From the NCBI GenBank assembly GCA_013115135.1, contig JABANP010000108.1, positions 62,001-126,000 on the forward strand: a stretch of 64,000 nucleotides of DNA, in the 5' to 3' direction. Origin of the DNA: Perkinsus olseni (lineage: Eukaryota; Perkinsozoa; Perkinsida; Perkinsidae). The notes under the pieces are model-generated. The model had not been told where the DNA came from. It made no database searches and was given only the letters and a program-made list of their open reading frames with translations. The position numbers and the translations under genes were made by a program. Shown here one piece after another: positions 25,561 through 59,850 of the stretch (its first letter is position 1; each line of letters opens with the position of its first letter).

Positions 25561-27283
25561 CTGGACGGTCTGCAGTTGCTGGGCGTGGACGCTGCTCAAA
25601 TCGGAGCACGGAGGAGATCTTCTGGAAGAATTCTCCACTGATTGTATGATCGGGAAGAGAGGGATGATGGGGTAAGGAGGGAATAGGTATCTATTTATTA
25701 CCGAGTTTTTCGATGCGGGTACGTTTGGCATTATCGAACGTTAGCTCAGCGCTTATCCAAAATTTGGGTTACTGCGCCTCACGGGAGCCTTCTACTGCGT
25801 AGGAAATTCAGTATAGCCCATAGACTGTGAGGGAAGCGGAAAAGGTCTCGGGGGATCTTGCCGGTATGTATCTCGAAGAGCTTAGATGGCAGAGCTTAGA
25901 GGTTCTGATTACGAAACACGGTCAGTCCTCATACTTAATCTTCACAGGCTGTTAGTTCGTTTTTGACAATATCTCTCGATTCGCTGGGTTGATTCCCATC
26001 CCCTTCTCAGGTTGCAGCCGAATCGAGAGTACGCGGAACATTTATTTCGACCAAGTCATTTCATCAGTCACGTGCATGAGTGGTGGCTTGAGCAATTCGG
26101 AGTCTCCCTGTTGAATAGTGTTAGTTGCGAAATTATTGGTTGCGGACGCCACAAGTGAGTTTCCAGCGCCTACGTATTACATTAATCGCATCCTGCCGAG
26201 GGAGACGTGGTGAAGCCAAGAGAGGTGATCCATGCGGGGTGAATTGTCCCGAGTGCACTCAGTGCACTGCACTGCACCCGGTTCACCCGGTGAACCGATC
26301 CCTTATGCAAATATCAAAAATTGAGACTCCTCTGTAAATACTACTCACTTGGTACGAGATTCTTTTGTATGGAAATCGCTGTACTTATGTGCTTTGAAGA
26401 CAGGATCTCACTTACTTGTCGATCGGCCGGTTCATTGGGCAATGTCCATTGGACATGCACTTGTTAACCGCGAATTTCGCGGCGCGAAATGGCGTTGAAC
26501 ACGAGATGCAAATGACGGAAAGTTTCCGTCGGAAACTGCGAAGTGGTAGTCGACTCTATTACATTGCGAAGAAAGTTTCTTCGCTGGCAGCGAATCGCTG
26601 CGGAAACCGGGCGGTTACCATGGTGATACCACGGAAGCTCCACTGCCTTGCAAGAACTACGCTTAAGCCATCAGCGCGCGCCACAAACTGTTTTGAAAAG
26701 CACTACGTGCTGGAAGGGACAATGCGTCGAATGCCACGATGAATTCCTCACGGTTGTTTCTATTTCTTTCCTGATCGGATTCTGGCGGCCTGGGATGATT
26801 GTGTGTGACTACATGTTGTGTCGTAGCCTTAAAGAACGTTACTAGCTTCGCGAGGCTAGAACTATCTCTGGTACTCTCAAGAACGAGGTATGATTGTAGG
26901 ACGATAGTTCGTCCGAGACCTTTTGGTATGGTGAATGTTTCGCTGAGAAGGGGGAATATAATGATTGATAGTCAGTAGCTGGTATTGTTTGATTTTTTTC
27001 TTTTACCCCACCCACAGCCTCCCGGGGCGAGCTGTGAGTCACAGCCTGTGACGCTGAGTTGCTCGCATTGTCTCTGACCCGTTCCTGTCGCGGTTGGTCT
27101 CGCGGGTCATCATGGGTCTCGGTGGGTGATCAGTTATAGATGATAACTAACTGTGGTACGGTCACTCCACCGACGTCTGCACTTTGACCTGTGTTTTGGT
27201 GTGCAACTATCAGCGTCAGTACGACTGCACTCATAGATTCGTCTGTTTTGTGTCACAAGTTCTCGTCCGAGGCCATATGCTAC

Positions 27284-28672
27284 CCAGTTCGAGTGCTCCG
27301 TGCCCGCCAATCCCCGAGACGAAAAACGCTGTTGACCTTGGTGCGACACCTGATGCCGACTCAGCGTCCACGGTGGCGGAGTAGTTTCAGTCGAGGTCAT
27401 GACTTGAATAATGTAGAGACTCCTCGGTTTATCCGAAGACTAGCGAGAAGGGCGCACAAAAACTGATCGGTTCGTCGGCGTCAGGGGTTCGCCGACGTAA
27501 ACCCACACGTCACCGCAGGGGAGGAGCACAACACCGAAATGTCGATTCACCAGATTCACCGCTTAACACCAGAACATGTGGAAACTTCATTCTACCTCAC
27601 GCTAGTTACTAGCCACACTGTCCCGGGGACAGTGTCCCCATCTCGTTGTGCAGACGCCGAACTTGTGAGAAACTTCCTCAGAGAAAGACGTCCCCTCATG
27701 GAGGTGCAACCACGGCAGACTTTCATTTTGGTTTATAATTCTGTAGTGCGAAGAGCACATGACGCTTAGGTAACTCCGGGAGCAGAGGAGAGGAGAAGAA
27801 TCAACTTAGCGTGAGTTGCACAGAGCCTGCGAAGCTGACTTGCTCAACCCCAGCAACATTCGGGAGTTGAGCATTATCCCAGCTCCAACAGAGGGAACAG
27901 CCCTTTGCTGCGGGCTGGAGCTCCACTTGATGGAAATTGTTTCCTTTTGACCTGAAAGTTCCAGCTCTTCCTCTCCACTTCTTTGCGCTTGGACCATTTT
28001 TTTCCACGACGCGCTATGAGCATGCGTGCATCCTATGTTCATGACTGATTTGCAGTTGAGGTTGGATGTAACGACTCTCATTGGCGCCACTCACATCGTA
28101 GTGCCAATGAGTGCTACTCTCGAGTCCTCTACTACTCATTTCCCATCGAAGGTGCTCTCCGCGCGAGCATCATCCCGAATCATCGATGACCGGTGTCACG
28201 AGAGTCGTCTCGTCCCCGTCTTCCGGCTGTCTACCGGTGTTCACACTACAATCGTGTTCATATGGGTCTGGCGGCACCGGTGGTGCCGACCCCGCCGTAC
28301 TGCTCATCTTATGGCACGCACTACGATCATCTCATATTTTTGTTTTCCTGTGAAATCCCGTGAGAATTTCGCAATTTCATTCCGTCGCCGCTCGTAGTGG
28401 CACTCAGGCTGAGTGACTCAGCGCATACGTGACGCGATCGATTACTTGAAGCTGAAAATGTGCAAAATTCCCGACAAAATTCCCGACATGTGTTCTTTCT
28501 AGGACTCACCTCGCCACGGAATGTTGACACTTACAGGACAGAGCTTTGTCTCGTATGAGCCGCTCTCGCCGACTGTGCCTCATACTGTTAGTCACACGTG
28601 TGTCTCGCTGCTGTGAGAACAGAACGCCCACGCCTACCAAAATACAAGATTCCTCTTGCGTCATGACCAACG
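27284..28672 (+). promoter_or_regulatory. Region H1: conserved upstream region of Gly-rich gene G1
   Basis: Matches the reverse complement of 51377-52735 (H2) and most of 58689-59850 (H3). In loci 2 and 3 region H lies directly upstream of the Gly-rich gene, so it should hold the promoter. Here it has been cut off from G1 by the retrotransposon. A plus-strand fragment of the YSRV exon family lies at ~28090-28170. Confidence 0.6.
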
Positions 28673-28863
28673 TGTTGCTGTACGCGGACTCAGTATGGTA
28701 CCAACTTGTTACCTTGTGATTCTTCGGCATTTTACATTAGCTGTAGCACGCAAGTACAAGATAGATTGGTGCAATACCTTTTGTTGATCCCTTTGTTATT
28801 ATCACTACCACAAGCTACATCACCAAGGTGTTGGGTTGACTATGAGAGCGACCAGGAGCAACA
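28673..28863 (+). repeat. 5' LTR (191 bp)
   Basis: Matches 39476-39666. It has TG...CA ends and 7-bp terminal inverted repeats TGTTGCT/AGCAACA. The first ATG of gag (28842) lies inside the LTR. Confidence 0.9.
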
Positions 28864-29515
28864 ATCATCCGAGAAAGAACTCCCCCTCCAAGCAGAAGCC
28901 TGCAACTTCGAGTTCGGCGACTCCCCCGCCGATTGTCGAGGAGACACAAGGCTCCCCCCAAGGCCCCCCAGCGGTACAGCAGACGCCTTCCGAGGCCACC
29001 CCTTCCCCCTTGAGACCCAAAGACTATGAGGATGCCCGTAAAGATGCAAGGAAGGAGGCTGACCTCATGAGCAAGTTCAAGGGGACTGATGATCCACGAG
29101 GTCTGGACGGCTTTCTCTCCCAGCTCAATGTGAGGTTGAGGTTGAATGGTTGGGTCACAGGCTCGCCTCAGTCCTATTATCTCCTTGTGAATTCGTTAGA
29201 TTCTGAGGTAGTCGAAGAGATCTTCGTCAACACTGCTGAGTCCCTTCTTCAAGTTCAACGTACTCCCGAATGGTTCGAGCACGCCTTCAACGACACACTG
29301 ACTGAATTGTACGTTAATTACTATGACCCTTCCATGCGAACTCTCCTCCTTGCCAAATGGCAGCAGACTCAGCAAGCCCACACCCAGTCCTTCGAGGAGT
29401 ACCTCAAGGAATTAGAGAGACAGCGAGTACTGTTGAAGCACAACAAGCACCATATCTCTGATCTAGCAACACTCGCAGCTGAGCCGCTAGACGTGCAACA
29501 TAGGGTCAGGAGGTA
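28842..29515 (+). pseudogene. gag, N-terminal part
   Basis: ATG 28842 opens MRATRSNNHPRKNSPSKQKP, then a Pro/Ser-rich region and a helical capsid-like stretch (GFLSQLNVRLRLNGW, LLLAKWQQTQ, SFEEYLKELERQRVLL). The frame ends at a TAG created by the inserted array. The remainder of gag resumes after 34661, so the gene is split. Confidence 0.75.
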
Positions 29516-32500
29516 GTGGAGTGCGATAGAGACCGTTTCAACCGACGCTCCGCTTTGCCATATACAGTGAGCACAGCACAGCATGACCGACCATGTCACT
29601 AAGTTCTGTCTGTGAGGGACGTACGCGAGGGAGATCAGGCATAGGTAGACGAACAGACGGGGATGAACGCGCGATGAAGATCCAGGAGGAGGTGTGTGCG
29701 GCCCGGGCAGGTCTCCGACGGAGAACGCTGCCCGGGCCGCAAGATTGACGTGTGACTTCGTGGTTGAGCATAGACTCACCGGCTTGGAAGGTTAAGAAAA
29801 CTGAATCCCTGGGCGTCATTCGTACTGGCAAACATCTTCTTGAGCAAACCGGAAGGCGAAAATATGCGACATAGTACCTTATACCTCGAGCAGTAGTCCC
29901 GTTTTGTAGTACGGGTACATGCCAGCCTGTGATTCACAGGACGTGATTCCTAAGTCGGGAGTCGGGAGCATCACGATATCAGACCTGTACACGGCCACTA
30001 ACGGCCTCCTTGTCCCGAGCCTAAACACCGAAAACCGAAGCCCAGTCCGGCTGCCATGGCGTGCGCTTTCGTGTTTATGTTTTCGCGCGGCCCCAAACAC
30101 GATTTTCGTAGGTAGAGCCGCAACCAACGCGATTGAACCTCCCATACATTAGGATATGGATCTTATTGCCGTTGGGAATATTCTTGTCAATTTTCGTGTT
30201 AAATGTGACTCATTTGAAGCCTGCACAGCGCACGAACGAAAATTGTGAAACGTGCACCATTATGGCAGCGGAGCGTAGTTCTGTCCCATTTGTGCGCCGC
30301 GTCACCTGAAATTCCCACGAGAAATGGTTGGTTTGTGGCGTGGATGTTTTCGTTTGGCATGAGACTGTGCAGGATTACTCATATGCACGGTAAGAGTACT
30401 CGTGCAAAGTTTGAGAAAATTTCATAGGCTAATTTCGAAAATCGCTCCGATTCGATGCAGATGTAATATGGTTGTTTCCGGTGGCAGAGACCACCCGCGC
30501 TCGCCCTAGGCCCTCGCGGGGCCCTTCCCGCTCGGGCTAACATTTGTGAGGTACCCCGCATGGAACTCGCCCTCCGTTCACCTAGAGACCGAACGTCCAG
30601 AGGCCGCTAGCAGCTTAAGACGGGGCGAAAACTACCGCTGAGGTGGCAGAGGAGCAGCACGGGAGGCTCGTAACTCGCGGAATCCTACCCCAGGCCTTTG
30701 CGCTCGTGTACACAAGAAGCCGAACGGGGAAGGCTGCGGCGAGACAAAGAAGGAGCGAACACCACGAAGACTGAAGAGTAACACAGAATGCAGCGGGAAA
30801 CTTGATACACATACAGCGGCCCGGGTAAGTGCCCACATGTGGTCTCTTACCCGGACCGCAGAAGGTAATGGTTGACGTTCGTAGGATGGTGGGCGTGCGC
30901 CAACGAAGCTGCGCAGTTGTACGTCGCGCGCGCCTGTCCCTGTCGTGCGACCATGATGTGCGGTGCAGCTAGCGCGCGCCCGATAAGCGGACTGAATGCT
31001 GCAGAGGTCGGTAGTGGCCCATACGCGAGCAGACCGTGGAGGAAAGCAGCTGCTCATGCACGAGGGAGCCGTTTGGGGGAGCGTAGAACATAGGAGGGGG
31101 GCCTAGTCGAGTGTGAACAACGTGCGCAAGCTTTAGCACGATGTATAGAGCGCGAATCGCGTCATGTGAGGTGGGCAATCGGGTAGTACATTAAACAGGT
31201 TGTTCGGAGTACGTTTGCAAAGTTTCAGGCCAGCACAACTCAGACTCGTGGAGATATACGCGCGTGACGTCGATGCGAAGAGCGAAAAGTGCAAAACATG
31301 CGGCGTGACGTGAGCGGAGCGATTGTCCCGTAGTGACGTAACTTTGCACACTTATATTGAGCTAACTAGGCTATAGATCGACACCGGGACAAGTCGAATC
31401 TGATTATTTTCAGGGTATGTGTAATCGTGCAAAGTTTGAGAAAAATTGAATGGTAAACAGCGAAAAGGACCCTTGGTTGGTGCAGTCCGGTAGTAGGATC
31501 AAGCGGTGAGGATCACCCGAAAAGCGCGCGCCCGCACGGGCCCCTCCCCGCGCGGGCGAAAAGTGTGCGAATGGGTGGGGGTGGGATCGACGCTTTTCCA
31601 CCGTCCACCTAGAGAAAGACGTCCTAAGGCCGCGAGCGCAAAAATGAGAGAAAACCGTGGAGCAGGAGCGCGCTGCTGGTCAGAGTCACGCCGGTAGGGC
31701 AGTCGAGTAGTGTCCACAGTCTCTACGTCTGCAGCTCGGTACGCTTCAAACGTACGAGTGCCAATACAGCGAGTGTAGGACCGGGGGATGTAACTGGTGC
31801 GCTTTACGATGGGACGGTGACACGCAGCTGTCGGTAGGGTATGGCGATCCGGGCTCCCCCACAAATGGGGACCCTGCCCGGATCGCAAGGTTACGTTAAG
31901 TGTGTAACAGTCGCCGGCGGGCGTGCGCGGTTGACGATGCGCAGTGGCATGGAGCACGCGCCCAGGGCGCGGCGCCCTGACAGGTTTGGTGGACTTGCGA
32001 GGCAAAGTACGCAACAAGAAACCGATTGTGGCCCGCGAGGGCATAATGATGAATATCAGGATATAATTTATACGCCGAACAACCCACCGGCTAGAGAAGA
32101 GCAGTGCTAACTCGCTCATAACGTATAACCGCACGGACGCGGCTGTGGCGTGCCCTTTCTCGCGTATATTAGCGCGCGCCCGTAATCCCCAATTTTGCCT
32201 CCTGCGGCGGTGCCAGGAGCCTCGAGCATTCGAGCGGCTAGGCTATGGGTCTGTAGGCACTGTGGAGTCTTGTGGCGAAGATCCAAGCGAAACCCGTTGC
32301 ATCTGAGTACTCTACAGCGATGATTCGAAAAGTGTGGAACGTGCGCCATTTTAAAGGCGGAGCGTAGTTCTGTCTCTTTTTTTGCGCCACGTCACGCGCG
32401 CGGCCCATGAAAATAAGTTAGTGTTTAAGTGTAAACGTTTCGTTTGAGACGAGATATAGCAGTGACACCATTTTAAAATAAGTAGAGTCGATTTGCAAAG

Positions 32501-34655
32501 TTTCAGCGAATTTTAACGGCTGGGAGTCGAGATGGGTGTCTGGGTATAGCTTGGAACCTTTAGATATACACGGTCACTCTCCCGACCATTTAGCGCGCGC
32601 CTCGCTGGGGCCCTTCCCGCTCGGCGACATTTCCCTGGGCATACAGCATGGCGCTAAACCCCCGTCCACCAAGGATGCGGGTGCGAGCAACGCATAGACG
32701 GTGAGAATATAACTAAAAATAATCGTCCTGTCGGTTGTCAGTCGTTTCTCCCTCACCGGACGACGTACCGGCGGTACAAGGTAGATCGCATAACGCAAAT
32801 GGTGGTAGAGAAAGAAAGGAAACCGACATTCTTGTTTTCTGGGGCGGTTCGGCCAGCAAACCTGTCCGAACCGCATTTCCTGAGCACTCCCGCGACGTGT
32901 CATGCACAGTGCATAATGAAGTGAATAATGCACAAATTAAGTGCAGTACACTTAATGCACAATGCACGTCACTCGTCCATACATATGCAACGTCTCCTAT
33001 GGTCGATATATTAGATTACCTCTTCGATCATAACAATTTAGCTATCGTCCTAAACATCATCGCAGGATTTCTGCTGCACGTTCAAAAATTTGTATGAGAA
33101 CTGTGGTGTGCCAGGATCGAACCTGGGTGAAGGAGATTTCCAGTCGATCGCTCGGCCTACTCGACTAGTGAATGCGCGAGGAGACATCGTAATCTTGCGC
33201 GGAGACAGTTTCATTGTGCGCAGAGACAGACCTAATCTTGCGCAGATGTCTCTAAGTTGTACGCGCACACATGAAATGTTTTAAGTTATTTCTCGAGAAC
33301 TACTCGACAGATTTTGACCAACATTCGCGTGCTGTCTTAGTTGGACCATTTGGCACCTCTTTGCAAAGTTTGAGAAAATTCTGACGGTGAACAGAAAAAA
33401 AGACCACTTTTCTGGGCCACCTTTAGCCTTATGCGCAGGCTGGCGACGGATTAGTCTCGCTCGCCCGGAAATGTTCCGTGCGGCGAGCCCGCTACCGCGT
33501 CTGTTTTTGTTTCTGGTGAAACCCGTCGCCTATCCACCCAGAGGCTTCGGGAGGGTTCAAGCTTGACGCCTGCCCTTGAACTTGCCGAATTGTGAAGACG
33601 CAAAATAGTTGAAAGGAGAGACTGAAGAGCGTAGAGAGGCCTACCTGCACTGCCTCGAAGACGCAGTCGCGCAAACCAATAATACTTCCATTGTTATCAG
33701 AACAAATAGACCCACTCAAAATGCACGCCGATACTCTTACAACTATTACTCTAAAAGTAATGAAGCGGCCAGCGGCCGATTGCGAGAATTATGTAACAAA
33801 AAAACTTTGTTGAAGTACGAAAATCGAAACGATGGTTCTCCCTTCGGGCGAGGCTGACGCCTCGACGAACCATCTCGTCATTTCTTGCTGGCAAGAAGAT
33901 GCTGCAGCTCGCTTATAAGTCGTTTGAAAGCTCCAAGCTAAGACCACGTGCAGGTGAGATCCACGTAGTGGGCCAGTAGGCAGATATATAGCGAACTTGC
34001 GCTCAAAATTAGCACTCGAAGAACATGCGAGCGAGGAATTGTCAGAGCTGCTTGGAGCAGCCTGCTTCGAACCAGGGAAGCAGCTGCATAATACATCGGC
34101 GTATAGTCAGTGTTTTAAAATAGGTGGGATAGGAGCAAAAACAAAGTAAACATGACATAGTGAAGAGAACCTTCGATTGTTAGGACCCCAGAGGAAGTAT
34201 GCACAACAGCACGTATCGCGAAAAAAGGTCGTCGCCGCGGCGGGAATGAGCGAGGTCTTCCTGCACGCGGGAAATTAGAACTTTGTGACACGAGGCGTGC
34301 GCTATATGCAGAGCAGTTTGTGCGTCGCAATGCGCACAATGTGCGACGCCGTGACGCAGCGGCGCGCGCTTTTTGAGCAAAGAAATGCAAGTGCGCAAGC
34401 GGAGGAGACGTGACAGGAACCATGGTTTGTGGTTAATGTGAGTGTCAAAACATTTCGATTCGCATCGGGATAGTAGGAATAAACTTTGACGGACCATATT
34501 GAATGATTTGGAAGGTTTGAATAAATTGTAATGGGTAGGAGCAAAGATAATATATAGGAACGGGGGGGCCTAAGCACGATAGGTTCCGGCCAGGAATGCC
34601 CGGAAGTTGTTTCTAGCGCTCGCCCTAAATTAGGACCCTCCCCCAATTGGCTCGC
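29516..34655. repeat. ~5.1-kb insertion of degenerate ~1-kb tandem units inside gag
   Basis: Bounded by GGAGGT on both sides (29510-29515 and 34656-34661), a possible 6-bp target duplication. Units share landmarks: GCAAAGTTTGAGAAAATT-type boxes at ~30403, 31425, 32493 and 33363; a GC-rich block with GGGCCCTTCCCGC near 30520, 31535 and 32610; and a strong hairpin near 29707, 30818, 31845, 32854 and 33828. Units are heavily diverged from one another. No convincing ORF was found inside. Confidence 0.6.
33102..33170 (-). pseudogene. tRNA-Ser-like relic
   Basis: On the minus strand there is GCCGAGCGATCGACTGGAAA, as in a tRNA-Ser with anticodon GGA, followed by a good T arm (CCCAGGTTCGATCCTGG). 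The 5' acceptor strand does not pair with the 3' end, so it is probably dead or tRNA-derived repeat material. Confidence 0.5.
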
Positions 34656-34661
34656 GGAGGT

Positions 34662-35613
34662 CTTTGACTCCAATTGTGGATGTGTTCACCAAGATCTAGT
34701 TGAGAAGCTGTTGCTGACCACAACATCGCCTTACAAGGATTGGGTTGCAGAGTGGGTTGCTGAGGAGAGAGAACCGAAGGAGGTGGTGAGGTTACTGAGG
34801 AACCGTGCCCGAGCTACTGTAGCTCAGAATATGTTCAAGTCCAGCACTGAGACTCTGGCTGGTATTAACGACTCCGATAGGAATCACCAAGAAACCGATG
34901 CCACCAACAACAACGCCGATGCTGCTACTGGGTCTACCCCACGCCGTGTTAACTACAAGGTCCTAAGAGAGAACAACCGCTGCTGCCGATGCTTCCGTGT
35001 TGGTCATATCAGTAGCGTCTGCGAAGCCCCAGAACCAGCGTCGTTATCGAGTAGGTGTTTGTCCTGTGGAGGCTCCCATGAGACTTCATTGTGCCGTCTG
35101 TCACAGAAGGTTGGGGTACAGAATCTTCAATGTCGTCGATGCAAGGGATCTGGTCATGTCGCTCACATCTGCAGAGGAGTCAAGGTTGCCAACAAGACTC
35201 CATCGACTTCAGCCTCTGGTCTCTCAACAACGAAAGATGATCCACCTGAAGGACCGTCGACGAAGACCTCAACCAGCACTCAACAACAAGATGATAAGCA
35301 GGATCCCAAGGTCCATCCCCTTAGCATGCTCTCCGAGATGGACACTGACACTGACCCCCTCTACACGGAGATAAGGTTTGTAGCAGCGAAGCCTTTCAAG
35401 TGCACGGCAATGATCGACACCGGTGCGGCGAGGGTCTATGTTCGTCAGAGTCTGACCAAGTCCTTGGAAGAGGCCGGTGCTGTGGCAGGGTCACGACAGG
35501 TGAACCGTCGCATTGTTCTCGCTGATGGTCACGAGGGCCTCGTGACGAGGCCTTTGCCACTAAGGAGATTACCTTCTATGTCGAGCTCCCCAAGGGTCGC
35601 CATGTCTGCTTAA
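34662..35613 (+). pseudogene. gag C-terminal part with zinc knuckles, and protease
   Basis: Continues gag after the insertion (KDWVAEWVAEEREPKEVVRL). Three Cys/His clusters follow: CCRCFRVGHISSVC near 34980, CLSCGGSHETSLC, and CRRCKGSGHVAHIC. The protease active site is AMIDTGAARVYV near 35407. One frame change near 34690 and another near 35545 separate it from the flanking coding parts. Confidence 0.8.
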
Positions 35614-35624
35614 GTGCACTCGAG

Positions 35625-39666: not shown

Positions 39667-39720
39667 AACGGCGACTTTTACAGCTGAGTGGCCTATCAGT
39701 TTCAGTTTCTTCATACAGAT

Positions 39721-40578: not shown

Positions 40579-40737
40579 AGTAACCTGGTGTTCGGATAGC
40601 AGTGCTACCGGAGCACGAGTCGTGCTGCACGACTACCATTGGTAATGGTCCATTACGGCCCGCATGAGCAATCCTGCGATGGCTCTGGCTTTCGCCATAA
40701 ACAGTGTTCATTGAACATCCAGTTGTTTTTGTATGAG

Positions 40738-40883: not shown

Positions 40884-42056
40884 TTACGCGCGTAAGACTG
40901 TGTCTGTTGTGCTCAGTGCCACCGTTGTAACGGAACGGAACTTCAGCAGACTAGTGGTTGTGGTAATAGCATAGGGCCTCGCACGAGATTCTCGTGCTCG
41001 TGTTCTCGTGACGAGAACTTGTGACACAAATTTTGTGTACTGTGCACTTAGCAGCTAAGTCTTAGCTTGAGGGAAACTTCACATGCTATAGAGGTATGAA
41101 CGAAGCCACATGCCGTCAATGAGGCCAGCCGCGTAGGGACATTCGACACGGAGGTGCAGTGTATGGTGGGAGTCTATGCACTCCGTCTTACCCTGTTTGG
41201 CGAGGCCCCTTAGCTGTTGTAGCTCCTAGACTACGCTGTGTGTAAATCGACTCCGTTCAGCTGTCATTAGCTTAATTTGACGGTTGATCGTGTGGCCCTG
41301 CCTGTGCGAAGTAAACAATCCGCCCACCACTTCGTTCCTCAATTAAGCAACCCGACTCCGTCGTCTTGCTGCTATGACATAAAACAGACGAATCTATGAG
41401 TGCAGTCGTTCTGACGCTGATAGTTGCACACCAAAACACAGGTCAAAGTGCAGACGTCGGTGGAGTGACCGTACCACAGTAGTTAGTTATCATCCATAAT
41501 AGAGGATCACTTGTTATCCTGAGTTAAATACCGGAAACGTAGCGCGCGTAACAACACAACGCAGTATAAAGATTCTCCTGGCATCGCTCGCCCGGCAACG
41601 GAACTGCCACTGTGGATTGCTGCTGTTATCCTCCATGGTCCACGTAATGTCACCAGGACCTAAGTTATTTCAAGCTATTTAAACGTCAACTGTCGGGGAG
41701 CACGCTCTAGTCGAGTCTCTGCCCTCTTCCGTTGGCGTTTGCGGCTCGCCCGGCAGACCGCTGACGGTGTGCATCACCCCTTCGTCTACCCGAATAAGGC
41801 ATAGCGATTGGGTCGATCACACCGAAGGCGGTCTCTTAGAGACCGCTTAGAGACCGTCTCTAGGAGAGGGCCCTGCTCACCCCTGTGGCTATTACAGGGT
41901 GAGCGCAGCGGTCTTCGGGCCCAATTGCGGGGCAGCAGTGGCTGCCAGAGCCTCTGGCCCAGAGGCGAGGCGGCCCTCTGCAAGGGAAGCAGCTGGTTTA
42001 CGGGGGACAGTCCGACGGCTTGTCAGTTGACATTTGTCTTCTTTCCGTGCGAAGAA
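40884..42056. other. G1 3' flank and junction region
   Basis: 40884-41510 is shared in inverted orientation with 49698-50090 and 56915-57345, and in part with 27130-27255. It contains nested palindromes (40983-41030, and 41826-41862 with GGTCTC/GAGACC repeats). No gene is seen before the ORF starting at 42057. Confidence 0.5.
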
Positions 42057-45940: not shown

Positions 45941-46731
45941 TGGAACCACCATGGCACTTCAAAGCTTCGACCAGGCGAGTCGCCTGAGGCGACTCCTAGT
46001 CGATTTTGTGAGAGCCTTGATGTCGTCTTGATGTCGGCCTCGGCCACCTCCGCAGACCTGCAGAACCAGCTTACCCCAGGAATGTTCAATATAGTTGAGG
46101 TCTGGACTTATCGCGGGCCATGCCGAGCACGCCACTCCATTGCGGTCGAGTCATTGCCTGATGGAGAGAGACACGTGCGGACGGGAACCAACTTGTTGGA
46201 CGGTATACTGCACCCCATTCTCCCTTCCCTCTTCCGTTAAAGCCAGAAGATCGGCCTCGAGTGACGCCTGATATCCGTCACTGTTCAGGCTTCCGTGAAT
46301 ATCGACAAGCGCGACCTTCTGATCTCTTGCTATGGCACCCCAGATCATTATGAAGCCTCATCGGAAACTTTCCGACGGAAAGAACGCTTCGATGGAGTGG
46401 GCTTCCGCTGCCCAGGGAATGCCCAACGGTAATAGATGCCGTCCGGGCCATTGAGATTGAAGCGTTTCTCGTCAGAGAAGATCCAGGTCTAGAAGTCCGT
46501 GCCGGCTGCCAGATGTCCGGAGGCGAATTCAATCCGTGCGGTATTCGTCCAATACTTTTGCTCTCCTCTTCATTCGGCCGCCGGTAGCAGTGGCTCTGAG
46601 TTCGTACGTTTGGGGGCTCTCGAAACGTGACGCGATCGATCTCCAGACACCTCGCAAGATGCCAAGTGTTTACCCTTACCATCCCCAGACTGTGTTTCTG
46701 ACGGTGTGGTAGGCATGCTCAGTTAACGAAA
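45941..46731 (-). pseudogene. Tc1/mariner-type transposase relic, SD2
   Basis: Same relic as in SD1 with the same frame breaks and the same QQV in place of the expected catalytic QQD (46190-46192). Both copies therefore descend from an already dead element carried along by the duplication. It contains an extra 14-bp palindromic insertion at 45979-45992. Confidence 0.8.
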
Positions 46732-47047: not shown

Positions 47048-47541
47048 CTACACCATTTCCAGACCTACTTAGTAAAACCTCAGAGCAAATTAGTAAAACC
47101 CCAAAGCAATTTGATTTCATGAAAGACCAATTCAGTAGAGCTCAACAAAATTTCTAACAAGTACGGAAAAACACACAGCGTCGGCCTACATGATGTAAGC
47201 CCTCGGTATCCTACAGATCGCAGGTTGAAGTTTGATCGTTAAACATTCGAATTGGGGCTCCGACTGGCATGCCTTCCATAGGTGAGCAAGGAGGTACAAG
47301 CTTTGGGCGTGATTGGAGCATCGTCTACAAAGTTAAGCTTCAACCCCTTTTGGAAGCAACTTCCCACAGTGCGGCAGGAGGCACTCTGATTTCGTTCCAC
47401 AGCCTGTCCCACCACTCATCGCCGGAGTCCCCAGACCGGCAGGAGGGACGACCCGGATGCGTCTCGCGTGCCGACTAAATTGTTCTGGAGTTCTACTAAT
47501 TTGGTCTGGGGTTTTACTAAGCAGGTCTGGAAATGGTGTAG
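47048..47541. mobile_element. Non-autonomous terminal-inverted-repeat element, SD2
   Basis: Equivalent of 24147-24640 with the same ends (CTACACCATTTCC) and no expansion of the 20-bp sub-repeats. Confidence 0.65.
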
Positions 47542-48468: not shown

Positions 48469-50395
48469 GGTCTGCAGTTGCTGGGCGTGGACGCTGCTCA
48501 AATCGGAGCACGAAGGAGATCTTCTGGAAGAATTCTCCACTGATTGTATGATCGGGAAGAGAGGGATGATGGGGTAAGGAGGGAATAGGTATCTATTTAT
48601 TACCGAGTTTTTCGATGCGGGTACGTTTGGCATTATCGAACGTTAGCTCAGCGCTTATCCAAAATTTGGGTTACTGCGCCTCACGGGAGCCTTCTACTGC
48701 GTAGGAAATTCAATATAGCTCATAGACTGTGAGGGAAGCGGAAAAGGTCTCGGGGGATCTTGTCGGTATGCATCTCGAAGAGCTTAGATGGCAGAGCTTA
48801 GAGGTTCTGATTACGAAACTCGGTCAGTCGTCATACTTAATCTTCACAAGCTGTCAGTTCGTTTTTGACAATATCTCTCGATTCGCTGCGTTGATTCCCA
48901 TCCCCTACTCAGGTTGCAGCCAAATCGAGAGTACACGGAACATTTATTTCGACAAAGTTATTTCATCAGTCACGTGCATGAGTGGTAGCTTGAGCAATTC
49001 GGAGTCTCCCTGTTGAATAGTGTTAGTTGCGAAATTATTGGTTGCGGACGCCACAAGTGAGTTTCCAGCGCCTACGTATTACATTAATCGCATCCCGCCG
49101 AGGGAGACGTGGTGAACCCAAGAGGGATGATCCATGCGGGGTGAATTGTCCCGAGTGCACTGCACCCGGTGAAACAATCCCCTATGCAAATCTCAAAAAT
49201 TGAGACTCCTCTGTAAATACTACTCACTTGGTACGAGATTCTTTTGTATGGAAATCGCTGTACTTATGTGCTTTGAAGACAGGATCTCACTTACTTGTCG
49301 ATCGGCCGGTTCATTGGACAATGTCCAATGGACATGCACTTGTTAACCGCGAAATGGCGTTGAACACGAGATGCAAATGACGGAAAGTTTCCGTCGGAAA
49401 CTGCGAAGTGGTAATCGACTCTATTACATTGCGAAGAAACGCCACTGGAATATCACTACATCACGTAATGTGAGATGATCATCGCTGTTACGCTTTCCCT
49501 CGAAATCCAGTACAGTTCATCGCGATATTCGCTGGCACGAATCGCTGCGGAAACCGGGCGGTTACCAATGTGAGACCACGGACGCTCGACTGCCTTGCAA
49601 GAACACCAAAAGTCTGTTCTTAGAGATCGATCCTTTGAGTCAAAGGCTTTGACGCATCCACACATAAGCTACGCTTAAGCCATCAGCGCGCGCCACAAAC
49701 TGTTTACTTCGCACAAGCAGGGCCACACGATCAACCGTCGAATTTAGCTAATGACGGCCGAACGGAGTCGATTCACACACAGCCTAGCGTAGGAGCTACA
49801 ACAGGCTGTTGTCAACAGCTAAGGGACCTCGCCAAACAGGGTAAGACGGAGTGCATAGACTCCTACGGCACGCTGCACCTCCGTGTCGAATGTCCCTACA
49901 CGGCCGGCCTCACTGACGGCATGCGGCTTGTTAGCAAATTTTGTGTGCTGTGACAGTACACAAAATTTGTGTCACAAGTTCTCGTCCGAGGCCATATGCT
50001 ATTAGTAATAGCACAACCACTAGTCTGCTGAAGTTCCGTTCCCTTACAACGATGGCACTGAGCACAACAGACACAGTCTTACGCGCGTAACAGTTGTACC
50101 TACAACTGCTGATACAAGATTGACTTGGTGATAATAGGAGTATAGTTAACGACAGTTGTCCCTACAACTGCGAGTAAAAAATAATCTTGGCGATTATCGT
50201 AATGCGGCTATCGAACAGCAGTCGTCCCTACAACTGCTCATACAAAATCAACTGGATGTTCAATGAACACTGTTAATGGCGAAACCCAGAGCCATAGCAG
50301 AGTTGTTAATGCCGACCGTAATGGACCATTACTAATGATAGTCGTGCAGCACGACTCGTGCTCCGGTAGCACTGCTATCCGAACACCAGGTTACT

Positions 50396-51376: not shown

Positions 51377-52735
51377 GGTCATGACGCAAGAGGAATCTTG
51401 TATTTTGGTAGGCGTGGGCGTTCTGTTCTCACAGCAGCGAGACACACGTGTGACTAACAGTATCAGGCACAGTCGGCGAGAGCGGCTCATACGAGACAAA
51501 GCTCTGTTCTTCAATAGTCAACATTTCGTGGCGAGGTGAGTCCTAGAAAGAACACATGTCGGGAATTTTGCACATTTTCAGCTTCAAGTAATCGATCGCG
51601 TCACGTATGCGCTGAGTGCCTCTACGTGCGGCGACGGAACGAAAATGTGAAATTCTCACGGGATTTTAGAGGAAAACGAAAGCATGAGATGATCGTGGCG
51701 CGTGCCACAAGGTGAGCAGTATGGTGGGGTCGGCACTAACGGTGCCGACAGAACCATATGAACACCTCTGTAGTGAGGACACCGGTAGACAGCCGGATGA
51801 CGGGGACAGGACAACTCACGTGACACCCGTCACCGATGATTCTGGATGATGTTCGCGCGGAGAGCACCCTCGATGGGAAATGAGTAGTAGAGGACTCGAG
51901 AGTAGCACTCATTGGCACTACGATGTGAGTGGCGCCAATGAGAGTCGTTACATCCAAGCTTAACTTCAAATCAGTCATGAACATAGGATGCACGCATGCT
52001 CATAGCGCGCCGTGGAAAAAAATGGTCCAAGCGCAAAGAAGTGGAGAGGAAGAGCTGGAACTTTCAGGTCAAAAGGAAACAATTTCCATCAAGTGGAGCT
52101 CCAGCCCGCAGCAAAGGGCTGTTCCCTCTGTTGGAGCTGGGATAATGCTCAACTCCCGAATGTTGCTGGGGTTGAGCGAGTCAGCTTCGCAGGCTCTGTG
52201 CAACTCACGCTAAGTTGATTCTTCTCCTCTCCTCTGCTCCCGGGGTTACCTATGCGTCATGTGCTCTTCGCAATACATAATTGTAAATCAAGACGAAAGT
52301 TTTCCGTGGTTGCACCTCCATGAGGGGACGTCTTTCTCTGAGAAAGTTTCCCACAAGTTCGGCGCCTGCACAACGAGATGGGGACACTGTCCCCGGGACA
52401 GTGTGGCTAGTAACTAGCGTGAGGTAGAATGAAGTTTCCACATGTTCTGGTGTTAAGAGGTGAATCTGGTGAATCGACACTTCGGTGTTGTGCTCCTCCC
52501 CTGCGGTGACGTGTGGGTTTACGTCGGCGAACCCCTGACGCCGACGAACCGATCAGTTTTTGTGCGCCCTTCTCGCTAGTCTTCGGATAAGCCGAGGAGT
52601 CTCTACATTATTCAAGTCATGACCTCGACTGAAACTACTCCGCCACCGTGGGCGCTGAGTCGGCATCAGGTGTCGCACCAAGGTCAACAGCGTTTTTCGT
52701 CTCGGGGATTGGCGGGCACGGAGCACTCGAACTGG
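51377..52735 (-). promoter_or_regulatory. Region H2: uninterrupted upstream region of G2
   Basis: Reverse complement of H1 (27284-28672). It shows the pre-insertion state of the retrotransposon target (CGTT at 51373-51376 on the plus strand). It probably holds promoter and 5' leader. No complete ORF of its own is convincing. Confidence 0.55.
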
Positions 52736-53307: not shown

Positions 53308-54008
53308 CCAGACCTACCATTAGTGAACCCCAGACCACATTAGTAAACCCCAGACCACATTAGTGAACCCCAGACCACATTAGTAAACCCCAGACCACAT
53401 CAGTAAACCCCAGACCACATTAGTGAACCCCAGACCACATTAGTAAAACCCCAGACCACATCAGTAAACCCCAGACCACATCAGTAAACCCCCAGACCAC
53501 ATTAGTAAACCCCAGACCACATCAGTAAACCCCAGACCACATCAGTAAACCCCAGACCTACTTAGTAAAACCCCAGACCACATTAGTAAACCCCAGACCA
53601 CATTAGTAAACCCCAGACCACATTAGTAAACCCCAGACCACATTAGTAAACCCCAGACCACATTAGTAAACCCCAGACCACATTAGTAAACCCCAGACCA
53701 CATTAGTAAACCCCAGACCACATTAGTAATCCCCAGGCCACATTAGTAAACCCCAGAACACATTAGTAAACCCCAGACCACATCAGTAAACCCCAGACCT
53801 ACTTAGTAAACCCCAGACCACATTGGTAAACCCCAGACCACATTAGTAAACCCCAGACCACATTAGTAAACCCCAGACCACATTAGTAAACCCCAGACCA
53901 CATTAGTAAACCCCAGACCACATTAGTAAACCCCAGACCACATTAGTAAACCCCAGACCTACTTAGTAAAAACCCAGACCACATTAGTAAACCCCAGACC
54001 ACATTAGT
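53308..54008 (+). repeat. 20-bp satellite array (about 35 units)
   Basis: Head-to-tail CCAGACCACATTAGTAAACC units with occasional variants (CATCAGTAAAC, CTACTTAGTAAAA). SD1 and SD2 have only two or three such sub-repeats at the same place, inside the left terminal inverted repeat, so the array is a local expansion. Confidence 0.95.
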
Positions 54009-54710
54009 GAAACCCGAAAGCAATTTGATTTTATGAAAGACCAATTCAGTAGAGCTCAACAAAATCACTAACAAGTACGGATTCCGTACTACGGAAAAAC
54101 ACACAGCGTCGGCCTACATGAAGTAAGCCCTCGGTATCCTACAGATCGCAGGTTGAAGTTTGATCGTTAAACACTCGAATTGGGGCTCCGACTGGCATGC
54201 CTTCCATGGGTGAGCAGGGAGGTACAATGTTTGGGCGTGATTGGAGCATCGTCTACAAAGTTAAGCTTCAACCCCTTTTGGACGCAACTTCCCACAGTGC
54301 GGCAGGAGGTACTCTGATTTCGTTCCACCGCCTGTCCCACCACTCATCGCCGGAGTCCCCGGACCGGCAGGAGGGACGACCCGGATGCGTCTCGCGTGCC
54401 GACTAAATTGTTCTGGAGTTCTACTAATTTGGTCTGGGGTTTTACTAGGCAGGTCTGGAAATGGTGTAGATTCTACACTTTAGAACGCCAATAGACGTCA
54501 AATGCGTCCCTTCCATGATAGCATTCCTCTTGCAGCATGGACCATTTCTAATATCGTGTCAAGCATCAGATCTCAAGCCATGACGAGGAGGTGAGTAATA
54601 ATGTAGTACTACAACACCATATCCAGACCTACTCAGTAAAACCCCAGAGCAATTCGATAAAGCCACGGTCCGAATAGTAGAGCCCAAAAGCCGGTAAATT
54701 TCAGGCTCTC

Positions 54711-55403: not shown

Positions 55404-57659
55404 CTGGACGGTCTGCAGTTGCTGGGCGTGGACGCTGCTCAAATCGGAGCACGGAGGAGATCTTCTGGAAGAATTCTCCACTGATTGTATGATCGGGAAG
55501 AGAGGGATGATGGGGTAAGGAGGGAATAGGTATCTATTTATTACCGAGTTTTTCGATGCGGGTACGTTTGGCATTATCGAACGTTAGCTCAGCGCTTATC
55601 CAAAATTTAGGTTACTGCGCCTCACGGGAGCCTTCTACTGCGTAGAAAATTCAGTATAGCCCATAGACTGTGAGGGAAGCGGAAAAGGTCTCGGGGGATC
55701 TTGCCGGTATGTATCTCGAAGAGCTTAGATGGCAGAGCTTAGAGGTTCTGATTACGAAACTCGGTCAGTCGTCATACTTAATCTTCACAGGCTGTCAGTT
55801 CGTTTTTGACAATATCTCTCGATTCGCTGGGTTTGATCCCCATCCCCTACTCAGGTTGCAGCCAAATCGAGAGTACGCGGAACATTTATTTCGACAAATT
55901 TATTTCATCAGTCACGTGCATGAGTGGTAGCTTGAGCAATTCGGAGTCTCCCTGTTGAATAGTGTTAGTTGCGGAACTATTGGTTGCGGACGCCACAAGT
56001 GAGTTTCCAGCGCCTACGTATTACATTAATCGCATCCTGCCGAGGGAGACGTGGTGAAGCCAAGAGAGGTGATCCATGCGGGGTGAATTGTCCCGAGTGC
56101 ACTCAGTGCACTGCACTGCACCCGGTTCACCCGGTGAACCGATCCCTTATGCAAATCTCAAAAATTGAGGCTCCTCTGTAAATACTACTCACTTGGTACG
56201 AGATTCTTTTGTATGGAAATGGCTGTACTTATGTGCTTTGAAGACAGGATCTCACTTACTTGTCGATCGGCCGGTTCATTGGACAATGTCCAATGGACAT
56301 GCACTTGTTAACCGCGAATTTCGCGGCGCGAAATGGCGTTGAACACGAGATGCAAATGACGGAAAGTTTCCGTCGGAAACTGCGAAGTGGTAGTCGACTC
56401 TATTACATTGCGAAGAAAGTTTCTTCGCTGGCAGCGAATCGCCGCGGAAACCGGGCGGTTACCATGGTGATACCACGGATTCCGTGGCACGGAAGCTCCA
56501 CTGCCTTGCAAGAACTACGCTTAAGCCATCAGCGCGCGCCACAAACTGTTTTGAAAAGCACTACGTGCTGGAAGGGACAATGCGTCGAATGCCACGATGA
56601 ATTCCTCACGGTTGTTTCTATTTCTTTCCTGATCGGATTCTGGCGGCCTGGGATGATTGTGTGTGACTACATGTTGTGTCGTAGCCTTAAAGAACGTTAC
56701 TAGCTTCGCGAGGCTAGAACTATCTCTGGTACTCTCAAGAACGAGGTATGATTGTAGGACGATAGTTCGTCCGAGACCTTTTTTGGTATGGTGAATGTTT
56801 CGCGAAAAAAACATTAAGGCAGAAGGGGGAATATAATGATTGATTGTCAGTAGCTGGTATTGTTTGATTTTTTTCTTTTACCCCACCCACAGCCTCCCGG
56901 GGCGAGCTGTGAGTAATTGAGGAACGAAGTGGTGGGCGGATTGTTTGCTTCGCACAGGCAGGGCCACACGATCAACCGTCAAATTAAGCTATTGGCAGCT
57001 GAACGGAGTCGATTTACACACAGCGTAGTCTAGGAGCTACAACAGCTAAGGGGCCTCGCCAAACAGGGTAAGACGGAGTGCATAGACTCCCACCACACAC
57101 TGCACCTCCGTGTCGAATGTCCCTACACGGCCGGCCTCATTGACGGCATGTGGCTTCGTTCATACCTCTATAGCATGTGAAGTTTCCCTTAAGCTAAGAC
57201 TTAGCTGCTAAGTGCACAGTACACAAAATTTGTGTCACAAGTTCTCGTGCGAGGCCCTATGCTATTACCACAACCACTAGTCTGCTGAAGTTCCGTTCCG
57301 TTACAACGGTGGCACTGAGCACAACAGACACAGTCTTACGCGCGTAACAGTTGTACCTACAACTGCTGATACAAGATTGAATTGGTGATAATAGGAGTAT
57401 AGTTAACGACAGTTGTCCCTACAACTGCGAGTAAAAAATCATCTTGGCGATTCTCGTAATGCGGCTGTTCGCCATCGAACAGGAGTCGTCCCTACAACTG
57501 CTCATACAAAATCAACTGGATGTTCAATGAACACTGTTTATGGCGAAAGCCAGAGCCATCGCAGGATTGTTCATGCGGGCCGTAATGGACCAATAATAAT
57601 GGTAGTCGTGCAGCACGACTCGTGCTCCGGTAGCACTGCTATCCGAACACCAGGTTACT

Positions 57660-58634
57660 TTAGAGGAGAAAGCCAGCATCGCCACCATCACCGCCGTTAC
57701 CACCACGGGACCCACCGTCACCGCCACGACCGCCGTTGCCACCGCGGAAACCACCGCTGCCGCCATCACCGCCGTTGCCACCGCGGAAGCCACCGTTACC
57801 GCCACGACCGCCGTTGCCACCGCGGAAGCCACCGCTACCGCCATCACCGCCGTTGCCACCGCGCAAACCACCACGACCGCCGCGACCACCATCGCCTCCA
57901 ACAACACCGCCGTCACCGCCGCGACCGCCGAAGCCGCCAAATCTACCACCGTTGCCGCCATTGCCGCCTAAGCCACCACTGAAGCCACCACGGCCGCCGC
58001 GACCACCATCGCCTCCAAAGACACCACCGTCGCCTCCACGACCGCCGAAGCCGCCAAATCTACCACCGTTGCCGCCATTGCCGCCTAAGCCACCACTGAA
58101 GCCACCACGGCCGCCGCGACCACCATCGCCTCCAAAGACACCACCGTCGCCTCCACGACCGCCGAAGCCGCCAAATCTACCACCGTTGCCGCCATTGCCG
58201 CCTAAGCCACCACTGAAGCCACCACGGCCGCCGCGACCACCATCGCCTCCAAAGACACCACCGTCGCCTCCACGACCGCCAAAGCCGCCGAAAGTGCCGC
58301 TGCCGCCATTACCGCCCAAGCCACCACTGAAGTCGCCGTCGCCCCCACGACCGCCGTCGCCGCCAGAAGTAGCACCTCTGCCGCCTCGACGATCAAAGAA
58401 GCGATCATAATAAAAGGCACGAAGAGCCTCGGTAGAGAGCGAGCGACCATCAGTGTGAGCAAAAGCACTGTCGACGGATGCACCGCTCAGAAGATATTGG
58501 TTCTTTGCATCGTCATCATGAGCATCGTAGAAGTTGAACTCTTCCACATCGGTGGGCTTGGTAGCATCGTCTTGTATGTCGACGGCTACAGAAGTTGTGA
58601 GCAGGATCGCTCCGAGGACGACCAGGGACCTCAT
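57660..58634 (-). CDS. G3: secreted GGX-repeat glycine-rich protein
   Basis: 324 residues, the longest of the three. The signal peptide is identical. The junction before the repeats differs from G1/G2 ([20 protein letters not shown]). The array has four [19 protein letters not shown] units and a tail of [15 protein letters not shown] units like G1. The stop is followed by the conserved three-hairpin region. Confidence 0.8.
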
Positions 58635-58688
58635 ATCTGTATGAAGAAACTGAAACTGATAGGCCACTCAGCTGTAAAACTCGCCGTT

Positions 58689-59850
58689 GGTCATGACGCA
58701 AGAGGAATCTTGTATTTTGGTAGGCGTGGGCGTTCTGTTCTCACAGCAGCGAGACACACGTGTGACTAACAGTATGAGGCACAGTCGCCGAGAGCGGCTC
58801 ATACGAGACAAAGCTCTGTTCTTCAATAGTCAACATTTCGTGGCGAGGTGAGTCCTAGAAAGAACACATGTCGGGAATTTTGCACATTTTCAGCTTCAAG
58901 TAATCGATCGCGTCACGTATGCGCTGAGTGCCTCTACGTGCGGCGACGGAACGAAAATGTGAAATTCTCACGGGATTTTAGAGGAAAACGAAAGCATGAG
59001 ATGATCGTGGCGCGTGCCACAAGGTGAGCAGTATGGTGGGGTCGGCACTAACGGTGCCGACAGAACCATATGAACACCTCTGTAGTGAGGACACCGGTAG
59101 ACAGCCGGATGACGGGGACAGGACAACTCACGTGACACCCGTCACCGATGATTCTGGATGATGTTCGCGCGGAGAGCACCCTCGATGGGAAATGAGTAGT
59201 AGAGGACTCGAGAGTAGCACTCATTGGTACTACGATGTGAGTGGCGCCAATGAGAGTCGTTACATCCAACCTTAACTTCAAATCAGTCATGAACATAGGA
59301 TGCACGCATGCTCATAGCGTGTCGTGGAACTTGTGGGAAACTTTCTCAGAGAAAGACGTGACGTCTTAGACGTCCCCTCATGGAGGTGCAACCACGGAAA
59401 ACTTTCGTCTTGGTTTACAATTATGTATTGCGAAGAGCACATGACGCATAGGTAACCCCGGGAGCAGAGGAGAGGAGAAGAATCAACTTAGCGCGAGTTG
59501 CACAGAGCCTGCGAAGCTGACTCGCTCAACCCCAGCAACATTCGGGAGTTGAGCATTATCCCAGCTCCAACAGAGGGAACAGCCCTTGGCTGCGGGCTGG
59601 AGCTCCACTTGATGGAAATTGTTTCCTTTTGACCTGAAAGTTCCGGCTCTTCCTGTCCACTTCTTTGCGCTTGGACCATTTTGTTCGGCGCCTGCACAAC
59701 GAGATGGGGACAGTGCGGCTAGTACTTAGCGTAAGGTAGAATGAAGTTCCACATGTTCTGGTTTTAAGCGGTGAATCGGGTGAATCGACATTCCGGTGTC
59801 GTGCTCCTTCCCTGCGGGGACGTGTGGGTTACGCCAACGAGCCGATCAGT
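58689..59850 (-). promoter_or_regulatory. Region H3: upstream region of G3 with an internal inversion
   Basis: Follows H2 until ~59330. Then ~360 bp (59331-59693) is present in the opposite orientation, after which H2 order resumes at TTCGGCGCCTGC. It also carries one 14-bp insertion at 59360-59373 and lacks the one found in H1/H2 (52387-52400). Confidence 0.65.

Follow-up and report, generated by a model that had tools for sequence, protein, structure and literature searches.

Uniform 14-bp insertions in Perkinsus olseni, probable excision scars of hAT-type transposons

Duplicated copies of DNA within a 64-kb stretch of the genome of the shellfish parasite Perkinsus olseni (hereafter, the window) differ from one another by insertions of exactly 14 bp, which raises the question of what process could write inserts of a single length and structure at many different sequences. 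A sequence-only reading of the window had described ten such sites, each as a 6-bp target duplication around an 8-bp inverted copy; that reading named no mobile element. Its assumption of a Perkinsus source agrees with a protein match that points to Perkinsus olseni. The described sequence was found in place at 10/10 sites, nine as exact 22-mers and the one at 54465 with one change. The list itself proved incomplete: exact 22-mers with the structure TSD[1-7] + revcomp(TSD) + TSD[2-8] occur 34 times in the window, where ~0.0002 are expected by chance, and these include an additional clear polymorphic site at 28401-28422. Our pattern scan of the window tried targets T5-T15 with 0-3 extra bases and gave hits only for T6 plus one extra base. 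Additional hits from a wider geometry scan were the same scar sites read another way, and no second clear geometry was present in the window besides a TSD of 8 bp with one base lost per side. The fixed 14-bp geometry was thereby confirmed, but its unit was not: judging from the sequence, the repeated unit is an 8-bp target minus one base per side, rather than 6 bp. The sites are as follows (window positions, no strand assigned).

23460..23481: exact scar, 8-mer TCGGAAAG; pattern scan and paralogue scoring; paralogue 46321-46422 has the scar too
26253..26274: exact scar, 8-mer GTGCACTG; present at 56097, absent near 49115-49193
26468..26489: exact scar, 8-mer CCGCGAAA; present at 56312, absent at 49307-49394
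26515..26536: exact scar, 8-mer ACGGAAAC; in both paralogues (49380, 56359)
26580..26601: exact scar, 8-mer TTCGCTGC; paralogue scoring
27031..27052: exact scar, 8-mer GCTGTGAC; paralogue scoring
27618..27639: exact scar, 8-mer CTGTCCCC; present at 52380, absent near 59683-59752
28401..28422: exact scar, 8-mer CACTCAGC; absent at 51571-51658 and 58883-58970; missed by the earlier reading
31957..31978: exact scar, 8-mer CGCGCCCT; paralogue scoring
35530..35551: exact scar, 8-mer CACGAGGC; paralogue scoring
40612..40633: exact scar, 8-mer AGCACGAC; in both paralogues
41046..41067: exact scar, 8-mer ACTTAGCT; paralogue scoring
41944..41965: exact scar, 8-mer GCCAGAGG; paralogue scoring
45972..45993: exact scar, 8-mer CAGGCGAC; absent at 23045-23132 (98.9% identical)
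46361..46382: exact scar, 8-mer TCGGAAAG; paralogue scoring
49314..49335: exact scar, 8-mer TTGGACAT; also at 56279, inexact in SD1
49380..49401: exact scar, 8-mer ACGGAAAC; paralogue scoring
49632..49653: exact scar, 8-mer CCTTTGAC; paralogue scoring
49798..49819: exact scar, 8-mer ACAACAGC; absent at 41173-41258 and 57001-57086
50341..50362: exact scar, 8-mer GTCGTGCT; paralogue scoring
52380..52401: exact scar, 8-mer GGGGACAG; absent near 59683-59752
54075..54096: exact scar, 8-mer GTACGGAA; absent at 24220-24307 and 47121-47208
54464..54485: inexact scar, a single change in arm 3, 8-mer GTGTAGAA; paralogues show a 14-bp indel here
56097..56118: exact scar, 8-mer GTGCACTG; paralogue scoring
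56279..56300: exact scar, 8-mer TTGGACAT; paralogue scoring
56312..56333: exact scar, 8-mer CCGCGAAA; absent at 49307-49394 (flanks 100% identical)
56359..56380: exact scar, 8-mer ACGGAAAC; paralogue scoring
56473..56494: exact scar, 8-mer CCACGGAA; absent at 26589-26676 (98.9%) and 49538-49604
57192..57213: exact scar, 8-mer AGCTAAGT; paralogue scoring
57605..57626: exact scar, 8-mer GTCGTGCT; paralogue scoring
59353..59374: exact scar, 8-mer AAGACGTC; absent at 52289-52360 (100%) and 27659-27732
59878..59899: exact scar, 8-mer ACCCAGCC; paralogue scoring
60308..60329: exact scar, 8-mer ACGTCGGC; paralogue scoring
62703..62724: exact scar, 8-mer ATCTAGTT; paralogue scoring
63496..63517: exact scar, 8-mer CTCACCAT; paralogue scoring

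Every exact site was re-scored against its paralogous copies for presence or absence of the insert. The insert was missing from a paralogue at 12/34 sites; three pairs among these 12 are duplicates of one event, so that nine events are represented. Presence and absence at the sites noted earlier were reproduced, including the 26254 and 26469 scars in SD1 and SD3 and not in SD2 (the empty alignment for the former being poor, 83% with 9 gaps) and the 49315 scar, which recurs at 56279 and is present but inexact in SD1. The sequence-only reading had also proposed a length spectrum. Run on insertions between repeats, it showed a sharp peak at 14 bp (19), flanked by counts of 0-2 for every size of 10-13 and 15-17 bp; 1 bp was the most frequent size (62), and sizes of 2-9 bp occurred 2-11 times each. 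The 19 indels of 14 bp, among which are duplicate copies of single events, comprised 16 exact scars and three readable as scars with one change each.

The same geometry prevailed in a 345.5-kb sample of the genome, where 109 exact scars, comprising 91 distinct 8-mers, were present versus 0.001 expected. Compared with other stagger and insert lengths, as had likewise been suggested, a TSD of 8 with a loss of one base gave 109 scars versus 0-2 for each of the remaining 17 geometries listed; for a TSD of 8, a zero- or two-base loss gave 0. The earlier reading had seen no obvious consensus in its 6-bp targets, but the scar 8-mers carry a weak one: nTnnnnAn (T at 2, A at 7) was found in 18/91 versus 5.6 expected (p 9e-6), T2/A7 being the most frequent of 16 symmetric base pairs tested. 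Absent in full from 73/91, the motif is a preference and no rule. It is also the target preference published for Hermes/hAT (available text of PMC10368747 and PMC2803484).

Could such inserts arise with no transposon, through template switches during replication or polymerase errors that hairpins guide at quasi-palindromes? Formally, the scar N T6 n' t6 n T6 N' is expressible as a double switch, and the genome shows a mild general enrichment of short-spaced hairpins (spacers 0-12). However, template switching predicts a spread of lengths, whereas one geometry dominates, and it predicts no nTnnnnAn motif, whereas the motif is seen. We consider this origin very unlikely, in agreement with the doubt expressed by the sequence-only reading.

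Candidate elements are present in the genome. The hAT dimerisation domain PF05699 has 21 matches, a lower bound, and a 666-aa open frame contains DUF4371 and Dimer_Tnp_hAT domains. Two near-identical 2,675-bp elements each lie between perfect 8-bp TSDs (TAGGGCTT and CCTGATTC); the second copy is one base longer and aligns over the full length of the element, at 100% as displayed. In both copies the ends, CAGTGGCGGCG / CAGGRGCGGCG, form imperfect terminal inverted repeats. Element-free paralogous sites exist, so that both states of a site, with and without the element, are seen, and one element-free paralogue (L053) has at another place in its repeat a 14-bp scar (8-mer GTTTCTCG) that is polymorphic. 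A filled-site scan of part of the sampled sequence, requiring perfect 8-bp TSDs and at least 11/12 matching end bases (too strict for the C941 element), returned at least one filled site. No locus was found in which one copy has the element and another copy a scar at that very site, in comparisons that included 39/187 scored candidates. The hAT copies showed no clear nTnnnnAn in their TSDs or left-flank 8-mers, their number (n=8) being too small for a test. Exact scars were denser in 19 hAT loci, at 522/Mb (37 in 70.9 kb), than in 20 stretches elsewhere, at 170/Mb (Mann-Whitney p 4e-4).

We consider it highly probable that hAT-type DNA transposons of Perkinsus olseni left the 14-bp insertions behind as scars on excision; the excision at the scar sites is inferred. 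A hAT element would insert across an 8-bp target N-T6-N' and duplicate it, as seen for two elements of this genome. On excision, following reported hAT chemistry, the transposase would nick one base outside each element end, with loss of N' from the left flank and of N from the right flank, and the free 3' end would attack the opposite strand, leaving flank hairpins (on the left N T6 continuing into n' t6 n, on the right the mirror image). The palindrome centre base is the complement of the base adjoining the element, as in a one-base-offset nick with a putative hairpin. Hairpin opening at or beyond 8 nt from the tip would leave the 3' tails n' t6 n and N T6 N'; their annealing, followed by trimming of unmatched flaps, gap filling and ligation, would yield N T6 n' t6 n T6 N', and this predicted sequence is exactly the observed scar. 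Because both TSD copies are identical, the tails would be complementary over exactly 8 nt, and any nick beyond 8 nt would give the same product and hence a constant scar length. The earlier suggestion of a fixed-stagger enzyme or self-templated end repair was right in direction, since the data fit a transposase followed by hairpin-templated repair, but the stagger would be 8 and not 6.

A different superfamily with 8-bp TSDs, namely Merlin, Mutator-like or P, might instead have made the scars. TSDs of 8-9 bp are known from Merlin and from some Mutator-like elements (PMC8101967, PMC5225508), and Merlin-related sequences are reported in Perkinsus marinus (PMC8101967), according to the available text. 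However, the Merlin DDE domain (DDE_Tnp_IS1595), the one transposase domain of these three superfamilies that was searched for, had 0 matches in the genome, in a search that intron-split genes may escape. The Mutator-like Muta1 in yeast is similar in its 8-9 bp TSD and TSD-dependent repair, but its excision is mostly precise when TSDs are present, it shows no target sequence preference, and the available text of PMC5225508 describes no palindromic addition. The one-base offset, the palindrome and nTnnnnAn, in contrast, are reported hAT features (PMC5873905, PMC10368747, PMC2803484, PMC1978519; available text), and another superfamily appears an improbable source.

Published hAT scars are more heterogeneous, and the uniformity seen here therefore needs an extra, putative host property. 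In the available text of the cited papers, Ac/Ds (hAT) footprints in yeast, Arabidopsis and Candida albicans often show microhomology at the joint (PMC5873905, PMC1978519) and are varied: C. albicans yielded 28 types among 128 clones, two types making up 53, palindrome arms in S. cerevisiae reached up to 20 nt (PMC5873905), and at one Arabidopsis donor site 11/17 scars were alike, but short (PMC1978519). In Perkinsus olseni, by contrast, the sole clear class is the full 8-nt palindrome, at 91 different 8-mers. Hermes/hobo resemble the P. olseni scars in their 8-bp target duplication and nTnnnnAn preference (PMC10368747, PMC2803484) and form donor-flank hairpins (PMC2803484), which are putative in P. 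olseni; uniform genome-wide natural scars of one geometry are not described in the available text of these two papers. No report of such a uniform scar class was found in the open-licence literature, covered in part through the best-ranked 15 of 186, 8 of 270 and 8 of 42 papers. The uniformity looks new, described hAT scars elsewhere being mixed. We take scar homogeneity as a trait of host repair and not as a defining feature of the hAT family; it may reflect microhomology annealing in which the full 8-nt pairing is nearly always used. Matches to Ku (one exon-sized match), DRMBL (Artemis/Pso2 type) and Pol A-family are all present in the genome, so a missing repair factor is no simple answer.

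Work on hAT transposons and on V(D)J recombination meets the same question, namely how chromosome ends capped by hairpins are opened and then joined. During V(D)J recombination RAG makes a transposase-like cut, the flanks form hairpins and off-centre opening produces P nucleotides; the joints, however, are variable and lack an 8-bp target duplication, and RAG belongs to a different enzyme family from hAT. The analogy is drawn in the available text of PMC1978519 and PMC2803484. In the cited model systems the outcome is mixed and blurred by trimming, whereas a genome with one dominant outcome would supply thousands of natural repair products and open the annealing step to direct tests. Any genome can be scanned with the same simple pattern.

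Extrapolation gives about 10,000 exact scars genome-wide (interval about 4,000-19,000), vastly more than the visible elements (at least 21 hAT-domain matches). The chances seem to us even that Perkinsus resolves transposase-made hairpins by a single, highly uniform annealing route, whether through a host pathway dedicated to the task or through pairing of the two hairpin ends by the transposase, each hAT departure leaving the same 14-bp mark and the ~10,000 marks forming a permanent datable log. Scars would record former element positions even once copies are gone and, if a single route is indeed used, the log of past insertions and excisions would far exceed the surviving element set. This excess would also suit a domesticated hAT-like transposase or programmed rearrangement, with short-lived insertions and with scars reflecting a host function, not selfish traffic. 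Hairpin-making domesticated hAT transposases are known elsewhere, Kat1 reportedly being one. Yet ordinary transposition suffices, given that near-identical copies of at least one element family occupy two sites with perfect TSDs. Long open frames are also depleted of scars, as for neutral or harmful damage; a host function thus seems most improbable.

Since 14 is not a multiple of 3, a scar shifts the frame of any exon hit, and depletion in long open frames is expected of such frame-breaking inserts. Frames of at least 200 aa held 5/109 scars versus 15.8% of bases (p 2.5e-4); the figures were 17/109 and 28.4% at a 150-aa threshold and 3/109 and 9.0% at 300 aa. This depletion, together with the fixed geometry, the target motif and the scars common to diverged duplicates, is not expected of an assembly or sequencing artefact (fold-back reads), which we regard as extremely unlikely even though a single assembly is the whole basis of the analysis.

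After masking of scars and arrays, some other hairpin-opening combinations showed a small excess (for example 10 vs 0.3, mostly in AT-rich repeats, and 8 vs 1.3), and minor scar classes may exist besides the 8-nt palindrome.

The 22-base pattern named in the sequence-only reading, N T6 n' t6 n T6 N' (complementary bases in lower case), is exact in the sequence. With the 8-mer N T6 N' written as a target duplication (TSD), the same 22-mer becomes TSD[1-7], the reverse complement of the TSD, and TSD[2-8]. A pattern scan of the 64-kb window counted 34 exact scars, for a chance expectation of ~0.0002 with 14 constrained bases. Scanning 345,500 bases of the same 61.5-Mb genome yielded 109 exact scars versus 0.001 expected, with 91 distinct 8-mers. 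This small sample comprised the window, the hAT loci, 20 stretches from along the contigs and some small pieces, with overlaps counted once; the 20 stretches were hand-picked and are not random.

The geometry was specific. Within the window, a scan of T5 to T15 with 0-3 extra bases gave no match for any combination besides the scar geometry. Comparison with other stagger and insert lengths, as first proposed from the sequence, bore out the fixed dimensions: 17 other geometries, from a scan of TSD lengths of 5-11 with loss of 0-2, gave 0, 1 or 2 matches each in the 345,500 bases, versus 109. A control pattern with complement replacing reverse complement had 0 matches.

All-against-all alignment of the sampled repeats confirmed that scars are insertions. 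The length spectrum showed the peak at 14 bp on which the sequence-only reading had staked its claim: 14-bp insertions were found at 19 places, sizes of 10 to 13 and 15 to 17 bp 0-2 times each, and sizes of 2-9 bp 2-11 times each, the sole commoner size being 1 bp (62). Exact scars make up 16 of the 19, and the remaining 3 are readable as scars with one change. In site-by-site alignment to sampled paralogues, a copy without the insert was available for 12 of the 34 window scars, representing nine separate events. The presence or absence of insertions previously read from the duplicated segments (SD1-3, G and H) held at the named sites, the empty alignment of 26254 against SD2 being poor. Since some scars are common to diverged duplicates and others are confined to one duplicate, scars arose at different times. 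At 40988-41016, a 28-bp insertion between paralogues is composed of an 8-mer in reverse complement, six bases of that unit, and then the 8-mer once more. It resembles a slipped or doubled scar, and two simple events do not account for it.

Thymine at position 2 with adenine at position 7 occurred in 18 of the 91 distinct scar 8-mers versus 5.6 expected (p = 9e-6), the commonest of 16 symmetric base pairs tested; C3/G6 (11), G4/C5 (10) and G1/C8 (9) came next. This preference matches the nTnnnnAn target preference reported for Hermes in the available portions of two sources (PMC10368747, PMC2803484). A profile search found 21 matches to the hAT dimerisation domain (PF05699) in the genome, and none in 14 control genomes, which carry little weight as those known by name are prokaryotes. 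A hAT open frame of this genome matched two Perkinsus proteins, a hypothetical one of P. olseni (93% over 76% of the query) and a named one of P. chesapeaki (69% over 64%), and we take the source to be P. olseni or a species very near to it. Merlin, considered as another source, had 0 domain matches in the genome.

hAT elements
Contig C941: 2,675-bp hAT element; 666-aa open frame with DUF4371 and Dimer_Tnp_hAT domains
Contig C816: second copy of the 2,675-bp element; end-to-end alignment, 100% as displayed, one base longer
Locus L004, 537-1967: second-family element; 8-bp TSD GTCCGGAG, a less certain assignment because one side runs into a short tandem repeat

The C941 and C816 copies are flanked by perfect 8-bp TSDs that differ between the two places (TAGGGCTT and CCTGATTC), and end in imperfect inverted repeats of CAGTGGCGGCG type. 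Joined-flank queries identified element-free paralogues of the first site on contigs C737 and C456, checked base by base, and of the second site on C72 and others, from alignment coordinates only. The C456 paralogue carries a polymorphic 14-bp scar (8-mer GTTTCTCG) ~160 bp from the element's site within the same repeat. Ends of the second hAT family (TAGAGATGGGCA) had 35 genome matches versus 5 for the reversed pattern.

Element insertions and the scar product are both seen. Between them, we infer hairpin formation, opening and annealing. For a TSD of 8 bp and an offset of one base, the hairpin strand of the left flank would read N T6 n' t6 n and that of the right flank n' t6 N T6 N'. Opening of both hairpins at least 8 bases from the tip would leave 3' tails n' t6 n and N T6 N', which would be complementary across exactly 8 bases. 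Annealing of these tails, followed by trimming, filling and ligation, would produce the scar 22-mer, N T6 n' t6 n T6 N'. Subtracting the 8-bp target from these 22 bases leaves the constant 14 bp, which would then derive from the transposase target, so that no other measuring device would be needed.

The joined-flank search at the sites of the two hAT copies recovered only empty alleles and no scarred allele. A 10-kb scar-rich query gave no split with an 8-bp overlap among the 39 of 187 candidates scored, nor did a further search among 40 of 58, and no site both filled and scarred was found in these searches. For each visible element there are hundreds of scars, element counts being a lower bound; such a surplus needs long activity with element loss, or short non-autonomous copies, of which none were found.

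At L012:1234-1260, one end of a hAT element (TAGAGATGGGC), whose far end was not found, directly adjoins GGGGACA CTGTCCCC, the two left-hand arms of a scar. An element may have inserted into the central 8-mer of the scar; alternatively, a hairpin, once opened, may have rejoined the element, an arrangement reminiscent of the inverted repeat beside Ds in the available part of PMC1978519. Perfect palindromes with arms of 22-23 bp and a one-base centre lie near hAT domain matches at L008:1270-1316 and L020:1784-1828; these may represent opened hairpins of unusual length, or structure of the elements.

One scar class is prominent among the 91 distinct 8-mers, whereas Ds scars are varied: in the accessible text of PMC5873905, 128 Ds excisions in C. 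albicans produced 28 types of scar, with the two most frequent together accounting for 53, and palindrome arms in S. cerevisiae reached up to 20 nt. At a donor site in Arabidopsis, 11 of 17 scars were of one kind, though a short one, as excerpted from PMC1978519, and TcBuster scars in human cells were small mixed insertions and deletions in the portion available of PMC3499496. Absence of end joining (NHEJ) as a simple cause of the uniformity was rejected because the genome contains one exon-sized Ku match. A DRMBL protein, of the Artemis/Pso2 type, and Pol A-family genes are also present, and with Ku they leave the uniformity without a simple explanation. The most economical reading is a microhomology-annealing route using the full 8-nt match.

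In the window, 34 exact scars in 64 kb amount to 531 per Mb; the 19 hAT loci have 522 per Mb, and 20 other hand-picked 10-kb stretches have 170 per Mb (bootstrap 65-305), with at least one scar in 11 of the 20. Extrapolation from these 20 stretches gives a rough figure of ~10,000 exact scars in the genome. Only 5 of 109 scars fall in open frames of at least 200 aa, which cover 15.8% of bases (p = 2.5e-4), a depletion that is expected because a 14-bp insert breaks the frame.

Other candidate classes were weighed. The (9,1,3), (9,3,1) and (10,3,3) classes are the same scars re-read, requiring solely that the base outside the target complement target position 2. Other hairpin-opening combinations had a small excess over chance, which after masking of near-scars and tandem arrays was at most 10 versus 0.3, 9 versus 1.3 and 8 versus 1.3 (classes with 9-10 constraints). 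Much of this remainder is AT-rich or short-period repeats, and we claim no second class on it. Isolated 7-1-7 hairpins numbered 188 versus 21 before near-scars were removed; after removal, spacer 1 gave 88 versus 49-80 for spacers 2-7, so we do not claim one-armed scars as a second class. Allowing 0, 1, 2 and 3 mismatches gave 109, 50, 60 and 95 matches in the 345,500 bases, versus 0.001, 0.05, 1.1 and 12.6 by chance. This series was rejected as a record of scar ages, the 2- and 3-mismatch counts containing true scars re-read at a shifted position.

Other repeats were noted in the window and loci.

Window 28672-39667: BEL/Pao-like LTR-type retrotransposon, with RVT_1, Peptidase_A17 and integrase domains

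Its end copies are identical (193 bp each), and two exact scars lie inside it. About 390 bp at 56552-56942, absent from paralogues with a roughly 5-bp overlap and matched elsewhere in the genome, is probably a solo LTR. Self-alignments revealed a tandem array at 53308-54015 with a unit of ~20 bp. At L041:120-652, three same-strand tRNA genes spaced by ~230 bp lie within a tandem repeat, close to a hAT fragment.
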